From: Rhizobium sp. Pop5 | Lineage (GTDB): Bacteria > Pseudomonadota > Alphaproteobacteria > Rhizobiales > Rhizobiaceae | Assembly: GCF_024721175.1 (NCBI RefSeq) | Contig: NZ_CP099399.1 | Location: 3,704,001 to 3,768,000, forward strand | Direction: 5' to 3' | DNA: 64,000 nucleotides | Shown: positions 20,025 to 24,909 of the stretch, piece by piece | Layout of the letters: each line of letters begins with the position of its first letter | Numbering within the stretch: position 1 is the stretch's first letter | Notes under the pieces: generated by a model | What the model was told of the DNA's origin: nothing | The model's database searches: none | What the model saw: the letters and a program-made list of their open reading frames with translations, nothing else | Program-made: the position numbers and the translations under genes

Positions 20025-20333
20025 TCAGACGGCGGGCGGCCGCAAAATGATCGAGGGCATCGGCAAAATATCGAAACGGAAACCGAAACCGGAAGTGATG
20101 ATCGGGTCGGCATCAACAAGAGCTTGTGCTGCCATTTGATCCTCGACTTCGACGACCGCCATGCCGAAGGCGCCCTCACCCTCGAAGACGGGACCGACGA
20201 CGATTGCCGATCCCGCAAGGGCATGCCGGTGCCAATATTCAGCATGGCGTTTCATCGCCGCCATTTCCTCCCCGGTCCCGTCATGCGGGAAAGTCGGGCG
20301 CGGCGGCAGCAGTCTCAAGAAGAAATAAGCCAT
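20025..20333 (-). CDS. YciI-like protein between sucA and sucB
   Basis: A 102-aa protein of the YCII/dimeric alpha-beta-barrel type: MAYFFLRLLPPRPTF at the start, HAEYWHRH, VVGPVFEG and ALVDADPI as in YciI domains. The conserved HxxHxxY-like histidines may bind a ligand, but no reaction is known. It sits 15 nt after sucA and 39 nt before sucB, splitting two subunits that are normally adjacent. A role in OGDH activity is only a guess from position. Confidence 0.82.
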   Translation of the reverse strand: MAYFFLRLLPPRPTFPHDGTGEEMAAMKRHAEYWHRHALAGSAIVVGPVFEGEGAFGMAVVEVEDQMAAQALVDADPIITSGFGFRFDILPMPSIILRPPAV

Positions 20334-20348: not shown

Positions 20349-23333
20349 TTAACCGCCCAGGGCATCCTCGAGGAATGCCGAAAGCTGCGACAGATGCTTG
20401 GACATCAGGCCGGTGGCCGGCGAGGCGGCGGCAGGACGGCCGGTGTAACGGACGCGCTGATATTTCGCATCGATATGGGCAAGCACCCATTCAAGGAACG
20501 GGTCGATGAACGACCAGGCGCCCATGTTCTTCGGCTCTTCCTGGCACCAGACCATCTCGGCATTGCGGAAGCGCGACAGCTCGTTAATGAGCGCCTTTGC
20601 CGGGAACGGATAGAGCTGCTCGACGCGCAGGAGATAGATGTCGTCGATGCCGCGCTTTTCACGCTCTTCGAGAAGATCGTAATAGACCTTACCGGAGCAC
20701 ATGACGACACGGCGGATCTTGTTGTCCTTCTGCAGCTTGATCGGACCGTCCTTGATCACTTCCGCATCGTCCCAGAGCAGGCGATGGAAGGCGGATTCGC
20801 CGGCCAGTTCGGCAAGCGTGGACACTGCCCGCTTGTGGCGCAGCAGCGACTTCGGCGTCATCAGGATCAGCGGCTTGCGGAAGTCGCGCTTCAGCTGCCG
20901 GCGCAGGATGTGGAAGTAGTTAGCCGGCGTCGTGACGTTGGCGACCTGCATGTTATCTTCCGCACAGAGCTGCAGGAAGCGTTCCAGGCGAGCCGAAGAG
21001 TGTTCCGGACCCTGGCCCTCATAGCCGTGTGGCAGCAGGCAGACGAGGCCCGACATGCGCAGCCACTTGCGTTCGCCCGACGAGATGAACTGGTCGAAGA
21101 CCACCTGCGCGCCGTTGGCGAAGTCGCCGAACTGCGCTTCCCAAAGCGTCAGCGCGTTCGGCCGGGCAAGCGAATAGCCATATTCGAAACCGAGAACGGC
21201 CTCTTCCGAAAGCATCGAGTTGATGACTTCGTAGCGTGCCTGCGTCGGCGCGAGATTGGCGAGCGGAATATAGCGCTCTTCGGTCTCCTGATCGTAGAGG
21301 ACCGAATGGCGCTGCGAGAAGGTGCCGCGTTCGCAATCCTGACCGGAGAGGCGGATCTTATGGCCGTCGACGACCAGCGAACCGAAAGCAAGCGCTTCGC
21401 CCATCGCCCAGTCGATGCCCTCGCCGGTGGCTATCATGTTAGCGCGGTTTTCCATGAAGCGCTGGATCGTGCGATGCGCATTGAAGCCAGCCGGGATCTC
21501 CGAGAGCTTCCGGCCGATCTCCTTCAGCGTCTTCATCGGCATGGCGGTCTTGCCGCGGCGCTGCTCGTCGGCATTATCGGCCGTGCGCAGGCCTGACCAT
21601 TCACCGTCAAGCCAGTCGGCCTTATTAGGCTTGTAGTGCTGGCCGGCCTCGAACTCCTGCTCGAGATGCGCGCGCCAGTCGGCCTTCATCTTCTCGACTT
21701 CGCCGTCGGTGAGCAGGCCTTCGCGGACCAGACGTTCCGCATAGAGCTGCAGGACCGTCTTGTGGCTGCGGATCACCTTGTACATCTTCGGCTGCGTGAA
21801 GGACGGTTCGTCGCCTTCATTGTGGCCGTAGCGGCGGTAGCAGAACATGTCGAGCACCACAGGCTTGTGGAACTTCATGCGGAATTCGGTGGCGATCTTG
21901 GCGCCGTAAACGACCGCTTCCGGATCGTCGCCATTGACGTGCAGGATCGGTGCTTCGATCATCTTGGCGACGTCGGACGGGTAGGGCGACGAGCGCGAGA
22001 AGGCCGGGTTCGTGGTGAAGCCAATCTGGTTGTTGATGATAACGTGCATCGTACCGGCGACGCGGTGGCCGCGCAGACCGGAAAGACCCAGGATTTCAGC
22101 AATGACGCCCTGGCCGGCAAAAGCCGCGTCGCCGTGGATCAGGAGCGGCAGAACCTTTGCGCGTTCGGAAAGCGGAATGATGTCGCCGTCCCAGACGGTG
22201 GCGCTCATATCCTGCTTGGCGCGAGCCTTGCCCATGACGACGGGGTCGACGATTTCGAGATGCGAGGGGTTCGCGGTCAGCGAGACGTGCACCTTGTTGC
22301 CGTCGAACTCACGGTCGGAGGAGGCGCCGAGATGGTATTTGACATCGCCGGAACCTTCGACTTCGTCAGGCGCGTAAGAGCCGCCCTTGAATTCGTGGAA
22401 GATGGCGCGGTGCGGCTTGCCCATAACCTGGGAAAGCACGTTCAGACGGCCGCGATGGGCCATGCCGAACACGGCTTCCTTGAGGCCGAGATGGCCGCCG
22501 CGCTTCAGGATCTGCTCCAGAGCCGGGATCAGCGATTCACCGCCGTCGAGGCCGAAGCGCTTGGTGCCCTTGAACTTGACGTCGAGGAACTGCTCGTAAC
22601 CTTCGGCTTCGACGAGCTTGGCAAGGATCGCCTTCTTGCCTTCGGCCGAGAAAGCCACGCCCTTGTCCGGACCTTCGATGCGTTCCTGAATCCATGCCTT
22701 CTCCTCAGGATTGGAGATATGCATGAATTCGACGCCGAGTGTCGAGCAGTAGGTGCGCTCGAGAATCTCGATCATCTCGCGGATGGTCGCGTATTCCAGG
22801 CCGAGCACGTTGTCGATGAAGATCTTGCGGTCGTAGTCGGCGGCCGTGAAGCCGTAATTTTCCGGCGACAGCTCGCGATAGTCGTCAACGGCCGCGGCAA
22901 TGCCGAGCGGATCGAGCTTGGCATGCAGGTGGCCGCGCATGCGGTAGGCGCGGATCATCATGATGGCGCGCACGGAATCGCGCGTCGCCTGCAGCACGTC
23001 GGTGCTGTCGGCGGGCTTGCCCTCAGCGGCGGTCTTCGCCTTCACCTTGGTCTCGATGACCTTCTCGACGATGCCCCAGTCGCCGTCGAGAGCCGACACC
23101 AGATCACCGCTTGCCTGCAGCGGCCAGTTCTTCTTGCGCCAGGAAGCACCCTTGGCCGCCTTCTTCACATCGGCAGGATCCTCTTCCAGCGCCTTGAAGA
23201 AGGTGCGCCACTGATCGTCCACCGACGCCGGATCCTCTTCGTAGCGCGCATATAGCTGCTCGATATAGGCCGCGTTGGCGCCATCCAGAAACGAGGTGAT
23301 CTGAAACTGCTCGTTGGCTTCTTGCCGTGCCAT
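20349..23333 (-). CDS. sucA: 2-oxoglutarate dehydrogenase E1
   Basis: Thiamine-diphosphate-dependent E1 that decarboxylates 2-oxoglutarate and succinylates the E2 lipoyl group. The product is 994 aa when started at MARQEANEQFQ (23333). The N-terminus contains the E2-binding type segment (FLDGANAAYIEQLYARYE); GMAHRGRLNVL and the ThDP fold GDAAFAGQGV...NNQIGFTTNP are present; the C-terminal half carries LPHGYEGQGPEHSSARLERFL. The frame is open a further 33 codons, but these fall in a structured leader (23334-23501). Confidence 0.97.
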   Translation of the reverse strand: MARQEANEQFQITSFLDGANAAYIEQLYARYEEDPASVDDQWRTFFKALEEDPADVKKAAKGASWRKKNWPLQASGDLVSALDGDWGIVEKVIETKVKAKTAAEGKPADSTDVLQATRDSVRAIMMIRAYRMRGHLHAKLDPLGIAAAVDDYRELSPENYGFTAADYDRKIFIDNVLGLEYATIREMIEILERTYCSTLGVEFMHISNPEEKAWIQERIEGPDKGVAFSAEGKKAILAKLVEAEGYEQFLDVKFKGTKRFGLDGGESLIPALEQILKRGGHLGLKEAVFGMAHRGRLNVLSQVMGKPHRAIFHEFKGGSYAPDEVEGSGDVKYHLGASSDREFDGNKVHVSLTANPSHLEIVDPVVMGKARAKQDMSATVWDGDIIPLSERAKVLPLLIHGDAAFAGQGVIAEILGLSGLRGHRVAGTMHVIINNQIGFTTNPAFSRSSPYPSDVAKMIEAPILHVNGDDPEAVVYGAKIATEFRMKFHKPVVLDMFCYRRYGHNEGDEPSFTQPKMYKVIRSHKTVLQLYAERLVREGLLTDGEVEKMKADWRAHLEQEFEAGQHYKPNKADWLDGEWSGLRTADNADEQRRGKTAMPMKTLKEIGRKLSEIPAGFNAHRTIQRFMENRANMIATGEGIDWAMGEALAFGSLVVDGHKIRLSGQDCERGTFSQRHSVLYDQETEERYIPLANLAPTQARYEVINSMLSEEAVLGFEYGYSLARPNALTLWEAQFGDFANGAQVVFDQFISSGERKWLRMSGLVCLLPHGYEGQGPEHSSARLERFLQLCAEDNMQVANVTTPANYFHILRRQLKRDFRKPLILMTPKSLLRHKRAVSTLAELAGESAFHRLLWDDAEVIKDGPIKLQKDNKIRRVVMCSGKVYYDLLEEREKRGIDDIYLLRVEQLYPFPAKALINELSRFRNAEMVWCQEEPKNMGAWSFIDPFLEWVLAHIDAKYQRVRYTGRPAAASPATGLMSKHLSQLSAFLEDALGG

Positions 23334-23501
23334 GGTGATATGCGAACGCTTCCGTCCGCCTCCTGACTTTGATGATTTTGCCGGATCGATCGCCGGCTGC
23401 CGCATTCCGATCGCCGCCTGTCCGCGGCGCATCTGCTGGTCTCGTGTGCGAGCCGGGCGGAAGGCGCAGATGCCGTTCCTCCGCCCGGTCTATGGGTGGC
23501 T
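23334..23501 (-). promoter_or_regulatory. Structured sucD-sucA intergenic leader with possible pseudoknot
   Basis: This is the only sizeable gap inside the suc genes (168 nt). On the minus-strand RNA, stem 1 pairs 23480-23488 with 23453-23461 (9 bp, perfect). Its loop contains 23466-23473, which can pair perfectly over 8 bp with 23429-23436, giving an H-type pseudoknot. A small CTCG/CGAG hairpin (23441-23452) lies between. Two more stems follow: 23412-23417 with 23424-23429, and 23380-23384 with 23393-23397. No T-run follows stem 1, so it is not a plain terminator. A cis-regulatory RNA is inference. Confidence 0.45.
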
Positions 23502-24404
23502 TCAGCCCTTGAGGACTTCAACCAGCGTCTTGCCGAGGCGGGCCGGCGACGGCGACACCTTGATGCCTGCCGATTCCATTGCCGCGATCTTCGATTCCGC
23601 ATCGCCCTTGCCGCCTGAAACCACGGCACCGGCATGGCCCATGGTGCGGCCCTTCGGCGCCGTGCGGCCGGCAATGAAGCCTGCCATCGGCTTCTTGCGG
23701 CCCTTCTTGGCTTCGTCCTTCAGGAACTGGGCCGCGTCTTCTTCAGCCGAGCCGCCGATTTCGCCGATCATGATGATCGAAGTCGTGGCTTCGTCGGCGA
23801 GGAACATCTCGAGCACGTCGATGAACTCGGTGCCCTTGACCGGGTCGCCGCCGATGCCGACGGCCGTCGTCTGGCCGAGGCCCTCGTTGGAAGTCTGGAA
23901 GACGGCTTCGTAGGTCAGCGTGCCCGAACGGGAAACGATGCCGACCGAACCCTTGCGGAAGATCGAGCCCGGCATGATGCCGATCTTGCATTCTTCAGGC
24001 GTCAGGATGCCTGGGCAGTTCGGCCCAAGCAGGCGCGACTTGGAGCGGTCGAGGCGAGCCTTGACGCGTACCATGTCCATGACCGGGATGCCTTCGGTGA
24101 TGCAGGTGATGAACGGGATCTCGGCGTCGATCGCTTCGATGATCGCATCGGCGGCACCGGCCGGCGGAACGTAGATGACGGTTGCGTCGGCGCCCGTCTT
24201 TTCCTTGCCTTCGGCAACGGTTGCGAAGATCGGCAGGCTTTCGCCCTTCGCGCCGGTCCAGGTTTCACCGCCCTTCTTCGGGTGGATACCGCCAACCATC
24301 TGGGTGCCGTAATAAGCGAGCGCCTGTTCGGTGTGGAAGGTGCCGGTCTTGCCGGTCAGGCCCTGAACGAGAACCTTGGTGTCTTTGTTGACGAGAATGG
24401 ACAT
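23502..24404 (-). CDS. sucD: Succinyl-CoA synthetase alpha subunit
   Basis: Alpha subunit of succinyl-CoA synthetase, 300 aa. It has the CoA-binding Rossmann motif [15 protein letters not shown], the [10 protein letters not shown] segment, [12 protein letters not shown], and the phosphohistidine loop at [17 protein letters not shown]. Start [11 protein letters not shown] at 24404. Instead of following sucC directly, it is separated from it by a DUF1579-like gene. Confidence 0.97.
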
Positions 24405-24417
24405 GCGAGGCCTTTGT

Positions 24418-24909
24418 TTAGGAGAGGTTGGAAGACGTGAGGGACGCGCGACGATAGGTGCCGCTGACGACCTCCTGCCAAGTATCGCTGCCTGCAGGCG
24501 AAAAGCTGACGCCCATCCGGTAGCAGTCTTCATTTTCGAATGCGAATACGGTGCGCTGTCTGCCGCGCGGTGAGGTCTTCATCAATACGAGTTCATTGCC
24601 GTTCCACTGGCCGGAAGCCGGCGAAGGCGGCGCAAAACCCGCAGTATCGAACTGGTAGAGCTTGTAGGCCTGGTCCGAACCATCGAAGCCGAAAACATTG
24701 CGGGCTTCGAACGAGACTTCGCCGTCGCGTATCTGGCGGTAGCACTGCTCGAGGAAAAATCCACCGAACAGCGTCTCGCCCGAAAGCTCGGCGCTGGCCT
24801 TGCCTTCCCTGGTCCACGCCGATGCCGCAACATCTTCCTCCCCTTCCCAGACGCCGGCAAAGGCGTTGAGGCGGAGATGAGCAGCCGATGGCGTGGACTG
24901 GAAAGCCAT
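24418..24909 (-). CDS. DUF1579-like protein between sucC and sucD
   Basis: A 163-aa cytosolic protein (no signal) that looks like the DUF1579 beta-barrel family: [13 protein letters not shown] at the N-terminus, [32 protein letters not shown] and FEFEN-like FAFENEDCY. Such lipocalin-like barrels bind small ligands, but function is unknown. Gaps are 8 nt from sucC and 13 nt to sucD, so it must be cotranscribed and it splits the two subunits of one enzyme. Confidence 0.8.

Follow-up and report, generated by a model that had tools for sequence, protein, structure and literature searches.

A conserved hairpin between the Shine-Dalgarno sequence and the start codon in the structured sucD-sucA leader of Rhizobium and its relatives, a candidate split ribosome-binding site

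The suc operon of Rhizobium sp. Pop5 raises the question of what its one long intercistronic gap, located directly in front of sucA, is for. The window analyzed here (the whole stretch of DNA, 64,000 nt) carries on its minus strand, to which all features below belong, the upstream cistron sucD (23502..24404, stop codon 23504-23502, Pfam domains CoA_binding and Ligase_CoA) and sucA for the 2-oxoglutarate dehydrogenase E1 (20349..23333), whose product displays the Pfam domains 2-oxogl_dehyd_N, E1_dh, Transket_pyr and OxoGdeHyase_C and whose start is served by the gap. Between the two genes lie 168 nt, compared with 8-39 nt for the remaining gaps from mdh to sucB, in agreement with a preliminary description of this DNA that called it the only large gap between the suc genes. 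The same description placed in the gap a candidate structured RNA with an H-type pseudoknot.

A structured leader between sucD and sucA

The DNA of the gap was matched in all 148 genomes of the genus, the Pop5 genome included, with gap lengths of 150-181 nt and a single exception of 260 nt. For comparison, 117 gaps were taken from the genus and 86 leaders, representing 70 genera, from the rest of the family. The other families of the order are represented by 51 loci from 33 families, two of these loci being repeats of the same genome (49 distinct). Of 68 loci given for other alphaproteobacteria, 52 were scored, and a further comparison set comprised 80 named loci.

Folding of the single genome (23320-23510) yields a z of -2.1, with 6 of 200 shuffles equally good, which is mildly above the shuffled background; it is the comparative data that lift the leader above chance. 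Gap bodies without P5, the hairpin closest to sucA, display a mean z of -4.05 across 83 family gaps (72 of them below -2) and of -2.88 within the genus (39 of the 117 gaps). The sucD coding controls reach a mean z of -0.55, with 4 of 83 below -2. A structured leader that is conserved does precede sucA.

The preliminary description had named missing conservation or covariation of the stems, or an unstructured gap of variable length, as signs that would speak against its proposal. The gap length does vary, as given above, whereas the alignments reveal conserved stems, with compensatory changes in the intercistronic hairpin P1 and support for the pseudoknot within its clade. The structured leader was thereby confirmed by its presence throughout the genus and by the compensation in P1; the pseudoknot as its conserved core was not, being limited to a clade.

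The P5 hairpin and the spacing of the sucA start

The AUG start codon of sucA (23331..23333), at which the conserved N-terminus MARQEANEQF begins, has no nearer Shine-Dalgarno sequence (SD) than the AGGAGG at 23359..23364, whose GGAG core shows a conservation of 90% or more over 102 aligned leaders. The final G of this SD (23359) doubles as the first base of the P5 hairpin, GCGGACG-GAAG-CGUUCGC (23342..23359, arms 23359-23353 and 23348-23342), which we propose as the bridge in a split ribosome-binding site. A single-stranded tail of 8 nt (23334..23341) connects P5 to the start codon. P5 forms a perfect 7-bp stem of -9.8 kcal/mol on its own, with a pairing probability of 0.97 in a context of 351 nt. 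This best-supported element of the leader is absent from the preliminary description.

To count as P5 under our strict script, a perfect stem had to span at least 5 bp, with at most one G-U and at least four G-C pairs, and had to be preceded immediately by an SD-like tetramer and followed by 5-12 nt to the AUG. Such a hairpin was detected in 76 of the 86 family loci and 62 of the 70 genera, at a shuffled rate of 1.5%. In the other families of the order it was present at 21 of 51 loci (20 of the 49 distinct ones; shuffled 2.3%), distributed over 11 of the 33 families sampled. Among the other alphaproteobacteria only 1 of the 52 scored leaders passed (shuffled 0.8%); this sole pass outside the order, L065, may be due to chance at such a rate. 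Ten family loci were missed by the script (L224, L226, L227, L260, L264, L277, L283, L286, L292 and L298); inspection by eye places the hairpin barely outside the limits in L283 and L286, and finds none in L298. Bradyrhizobium-type leaders display an ordinary SD without such a hairpin. Across the 2105 ATGs of the 64-kb window, the succession of SD, hairpin and AUG occurs at one real gene start, that of sucA. The loops of P5 are variable in alignment A1, and neither a conserved loop nor a conserved flanking binding sequence was seen at P5. It is P5, rather than the pseudoknot, that forms the deeply conserved part of the leader.

Covariation offers a further level of detail. In the model-fitted alignment A2 the covariation score for P5 is 0.395 against 0.140 for shuffles, a value that includes a false place, L300. 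With A2 fitted to the model structure and affected by this false place, covariation was also counted in the structure-blind alignment A1. Here 83.6% of the P5 cells are paired, compared with 68.2% after shuffling, and the score of 0.351 exceeds both the shuffled value (0.160) and the values obtained when one arm is slid (at most 0.135). Under an R-scape-like null based on the tree, with L300 removed, the top four of 561 column pairs are all P5 pairs. Sequences of the genus by themselves vary too little in P5 for significant covariation.

A covariance model of 34 positions, R1, gave 9 matches on 85 held-out loci, each ending at a sucA AUG, and no others in 464 kb. Going by record titles, the matches belong to Ensifer, Shinella (two), Rhizobium wenxiniae, Phyllobacterium, Mesorhizobium (two), Bartonella and an unclassified member of Hyphomicrobiales; the held-out loci L034, L035 and L084 (titled Hoeflea or Rhizobiaceae) were without an R1 match. 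Over the Pop5 genome, R1 finds sucA at E 0.001 and its second-best match at E 2.8, and none of the next three matches lies where a plausible gene begins. Compensatory changes have kept the P5 hairpin in place between the sucA AUG and its strong SD.

The distances around P5 follow a distinct pattern. In 75 family leaders the linear distance from SD to AUG averages 26.0 nt (SD 1.92, range 23-33), while with P5 folded it averages 9.3 nt (SD 1.22, range 8-13), making the folded spacing the tighter quantity. The length of the tail in the same leaders is 8.7 +/- 1.05 nt and unrelated to hairpin length (rho 0.005), indicating that longer hairpins merely extend the linear distance. This is the pattern expected if the folded spacing matters.

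A near SD is lacking in 63 of the 76 hairpin-bearing family leaders and in the Pop5 genome. An SD-like tetramer close to the AUG despite the hairpin was observed in 13 family leaders and in 2 leaders from other families. In those other families a near SD accompanies 2 of 21 loci with the hairpin versus 18 of 30 loci without it (Fisher p 3.6e-4, over 51 loci that include the two duplicates), and the remaining 12 of the 30 are without a near SD too. Leaders of these families tend not to have the hairpin and a near SD together.

The predicted probability that the SD is unpaired in context is low (mean 0.34-0.39, 27 leaders), and in many Rhizobium leaders the G's of the SD are predicted to pair with the CC in front of the AUG, which may count against an easy use of the SD. 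A conserved switch between the SD and the 3' arm of P5 was considered and rejected: by eye, GGAG/CUCC pairing is possible in some Mesorhizobium-type leaders, not in Rhizobium.

Split sites of this kind are described for genes 25 and 38 of phage T4: structure there shortens the distance from 27 to 11 nt and from 22 to 5 nt; destabilizing the structure lowers initiation, and intact stems raise translation (PMC3014915). The leader studied here likewise combines a distant SD, without a nearer one, and an intervening stem that would restore a working spacing. From this match we infer that P5 probably places SD and AUG at a usable distance from each other, as a split ribosome-binding site. With P5 unfolded, ~26 nt would separate the SD from the AUG, more than normal use allows. 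Folding of P5 would remove ~17 nt and leave ~9 nt, so that one 30S subunit could hold both SD and AUG, and P5 could then set the initiation rate of sucA independently of sucCD.

P1, the pseudoknot and the remaining stems

Shortly after the sucD stop, the leader forms a strong stem, the P1 hairpin (23453..23488, arms 23488-23478 and 23463-23453). Its core consists of 9 exact base pairs between CCGGGCGGA (23488-23480) and UCCGCCCGG (23461-23453), just as the preliminary description had proposed, and can be extended by script to 11 bp with one G-U pair. The script located a stem of 6-16 bp in all 117 genus gaps, one of them mis-assigned (L018). The P1 covariation test drew on 113 of 116 rows (L022, L195 and L199 were not found; L120 was left out for its insertion). 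The five highest covarying pairs all belong to P1, with compensatory double changes on 8 branches; the 97.8% of paired cells is inflated by construction, as the script itself chose the pairing arms. In the rest of the family, 78 of 83 gaps contain a stem of at least 7 bp within their first 110 nt, with a median length of 11 bp and a median start 19 nt past the stop. Most family gaps, as well as those of the genus, have a strong GC hairpin after sucD.

P1 was rejected as an intrinsic terminator, with no terminator-like site (GC stem and T run) in 23250-23600, and a consensus scan for sigma-70-type sites found no promoter in the gap. P1 would separate sucCD from sucAB in the transcript through 3' protection, processing or insulation. 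Intercistronic stem-loops give segmental mRNA stability, for example in puf of Rhodobacter and in REP elements, and P1 resembles these in forming a strong GC stem after the upstream cistron. Given its position and this general knowledge, P1 is most likely an intercistronic separator serving mRNA stability or insulation. As a side observation, the family gaps L256, L261, L267, L270, L274, L281 and L291 contain long near-perfect hairpins of repeated words, such as TATTCGCTACTCACTATTCGC and CTCCCCTACTCCC, which resemble locally grown inverted repeats after sucD.

The segment 23466..23473 inside the P1 loop pairs with 23429..23436 in a helix of 8 exact base pairs, GCAUCUGC (23473-23466) with GCAGAUGC (23436-23429), reproducing the crossing helix of the preliminary description. 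In a clade of 47 sequences, 99.2% of the P1 cells and 90.4% of the pseudoknot cells are paired, and two pseudoknot pairs swap both sides from U-A to C-G (15 and 4 sequences). Among the pairs formed by all 175 columns, the highest rank goes to one from the pseudoknot (E 0.017, tree-based null). The helix adopts 8 bp in part of the clade and 6 bp in another, the last two pairs failing in 17 of 46 sequences. When loops are shuffled, the pseudoknot taken alone reaches p <0.05 in 32 of 117 gaps. In a second clade, some 'GGUCGCCGG' sequences appear by eye to use another register (L186 p 0.01, L188 p 0.04), and other clades, such as L162-L164, lack the pseudoknot. The pseudoknot filter let through 3 of 83 family gaps from outside the genus, with the same helix in L216 only; the candidates in L268 and L293 look like chance and were rejected. 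Joint support for both helices of the H-type layout comes from the 47-sequence clade and not from other clades; the H-type pseudoknot proposed earlier holds for one clade of Rhizobium and fails elsewhere through change of register or loss. Judged by these alignments, the pseudoknot is real where present, but apparently young.

The small hairpin in the crossing region and the two further stems before the sucA ribosome site, also part of the preliminary description, were all recovered. The linker hairpin CUCG-CACA-CGAG (23441..23452, -2.4 kcal/mol alone) differs in sequence among relatives in alignment A3 and is not conserved. P3, GCCGC-GGACAG-GCGGC (23413..23428), has a pairing probability of 0.97; 92.5% of its cells are paired in 79 sequences, with one pair at the 0.045 level. 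P4, GCCGG...CCGGC (23380..23397), is conserved in the genus and nearly invariant, hence without covariation evidence, and its pairing probability in context is only 0.22. The pseudoknot, P3 and P4 would be later acquisitions of Rhizobium and its closest relatives.

Within 23387-23428, the 5' strand of P3 could pair either with its own 3' strand or with a segment just before P4, an alternative seen by eye in both main Rhizobium groups and weak given the flexibility of G-U pairing. A clean deletion of ~20 nt takes out P4 in L150 (G067), where P4 seems dispensable. The 260-nt gap belongs to L120 (G035), which carries ~90 extra nt between P3 and P4 with intact flanks.

Rival readings and relation to known systems

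Taken together, we consider it rather probable that the gap serves as a structured leader between cistrons and has two functions, P5 providing a split ribosome-binding site and P1 separating sucCD from sucAB. The bridge might also be regulated, with folding of P5 and translation of sucA answering polyamines, Mg2+, temperature, an sRNA or a protein. A split site lends itself to control, and in E. coli bulged stems of OppA, RMF, RpoE and CpxR, located between a distant SD and the AUG, are stabilized by spermidine, whereupon translation goes up (PMC4191411). These stems of the polyamine modulon resemble P5 in being placed between or near SD and AUG and in being thought to reposition the SD. However, they are bulged and spermidine-responsive, whereas P5 of the Pop5 genome is perfect, GC-rich and very stable, which sets it outside that class; its variable loops and the lack of any conserved loop or flanking binding sequence seen at P5 also count against regulation. 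Moreover, a fully paired OppA stem is reported to have lost most of the polyamine effect (PMC4191411). The perfect GC stem, compared with the bulged E. coli stems, points to a mainly constitutive bridge, and we regard a regulated one as unlikely. A quite improbable reading makes the whole gap an element of mRNA stability or processing, in which P1 caps the sucCD mRNA, cleavage occurs in the unpaired stretch before the SD, P5 guards the 5' end of sucAB, and the spacing is a side effect. The strong stems of the family gaps and the lack of promoter- or terminator-like sites in the consensus scan would agree with it, but it leaves unexplained why P5 is situated between SD and AUG with a fixed tail of 8-9 nt, and why a near SD is usually lacking beside it.

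A metabolite riboswitch with the H-type pseudoknot as aptamer, toward which the preliminary description leaned, is very improbable. The layout is present, and a pseudoknot pair leads the covariation ranking; yet the pseudoknot is confined to one clade and a near relative and has been lost in others. No unpaired core common across genera was seen by eye (A3, A4 and family folds), and no Rfam family reached threshold, both of which argue against a riboswitch. Rfam covariance models, sucA-type motifs included, gave no match at gathering score over the whole window; the only matches below threshold were to P10, CC1840 and L20-Deltaproteobacteria, chance-like at E 0.095-6.6. We assign still less probability to chance folding of GC-rich sequence. 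It would fit the modest z of the single genome, the lack of covariation in P4 and the several 6-bp versions of the pseudoknot that are singly non-significant (p 0.1-0.3), but is at odds with the covariation of P5 and P1, with the z of the coding controls and with the held-out R1 matches. Chance folding is strongly disfavored for P5 and P1, a verdict that does not cover P4.

A split ribosome-binding site at sucA would belong to a kind known from T4. The split, or 'accommodated', sites of T4 and P5 are alike in that a stem shortens the distance from SD to AUG, for P5 from ~26 to ~9 nt. In contrast to the T4 sites, which belong to phage genes, P5 resides in a chromosomal operon of central metabolism. 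The T4 type is reported for close T-even phages (PMC3014915), whereas P5 extends over most of the genera sampled in the family and a third of the other families sampled. In searches of the open-licence literature, a scope outside which most subscription papers fall, we came upon no description of a hairpin between SD and AUG at sucA, and within that scope a wide, covarying, chromosomal case at a TCA-cycle gene appears new. The sucA RNA motif is a further candidate structured RNA linked to a suc gene. Other suc-linked motifs are sucA-II (RF01758, Pseudomonadales) and sucC (RF01759, gammaproteobacteria), described in PMC2864571. The likeness of all three to the present leader is one of suc-gene name; the window is without an Rfam match at gathering threshold.

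A more far-reaching proposal, which we hold to be conceivable though doubtful, is that in much of the order the sucA start no longer has an ordinary ribosome-binding site and relies on a folded RNA bridge. Initiation of a central TCA-cycle enzyme would then hang on RNA folding, and between sucCD and sucAB the cell would gain a point of control open to tuning by helicases, polyamines, temperature or small RNAs, with the pseudoknot of Rhizobium as an extra layer. If the bridge works, it would offer a cellular, order-wide case of an initiation mode known mainly from two genes of phage T4, at an enzyme placed where rhizobial metabolism branches between carbon and nitrogen. Genes of this type would be misread by RBS calculators and start-site predictors built around an SD 4-12 nt ahead of the start. 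The contrast between P5-bearing lineages and those whose sucA has an ordinary SD would then offer a natural experiment on folded spacers.

Two observations concern the surroundings of the leader. A repeat or second copy of the motif was considered and rejected: secondary matches to query positions 144-174 lie in or antisense to long ORFs (L112-L114, L117, L118) or comprise just 11 nt (L115, L116, L119), and the Pop5 genome holds one copy of this query stretch within 3 mismatches. The suc operon itself carries two additional genes on the minus strand of the window, a DUF1579 gene between sucC and sucD (24418-24909) and a YCII-domain gene between sucA and sucB (20025-20333).
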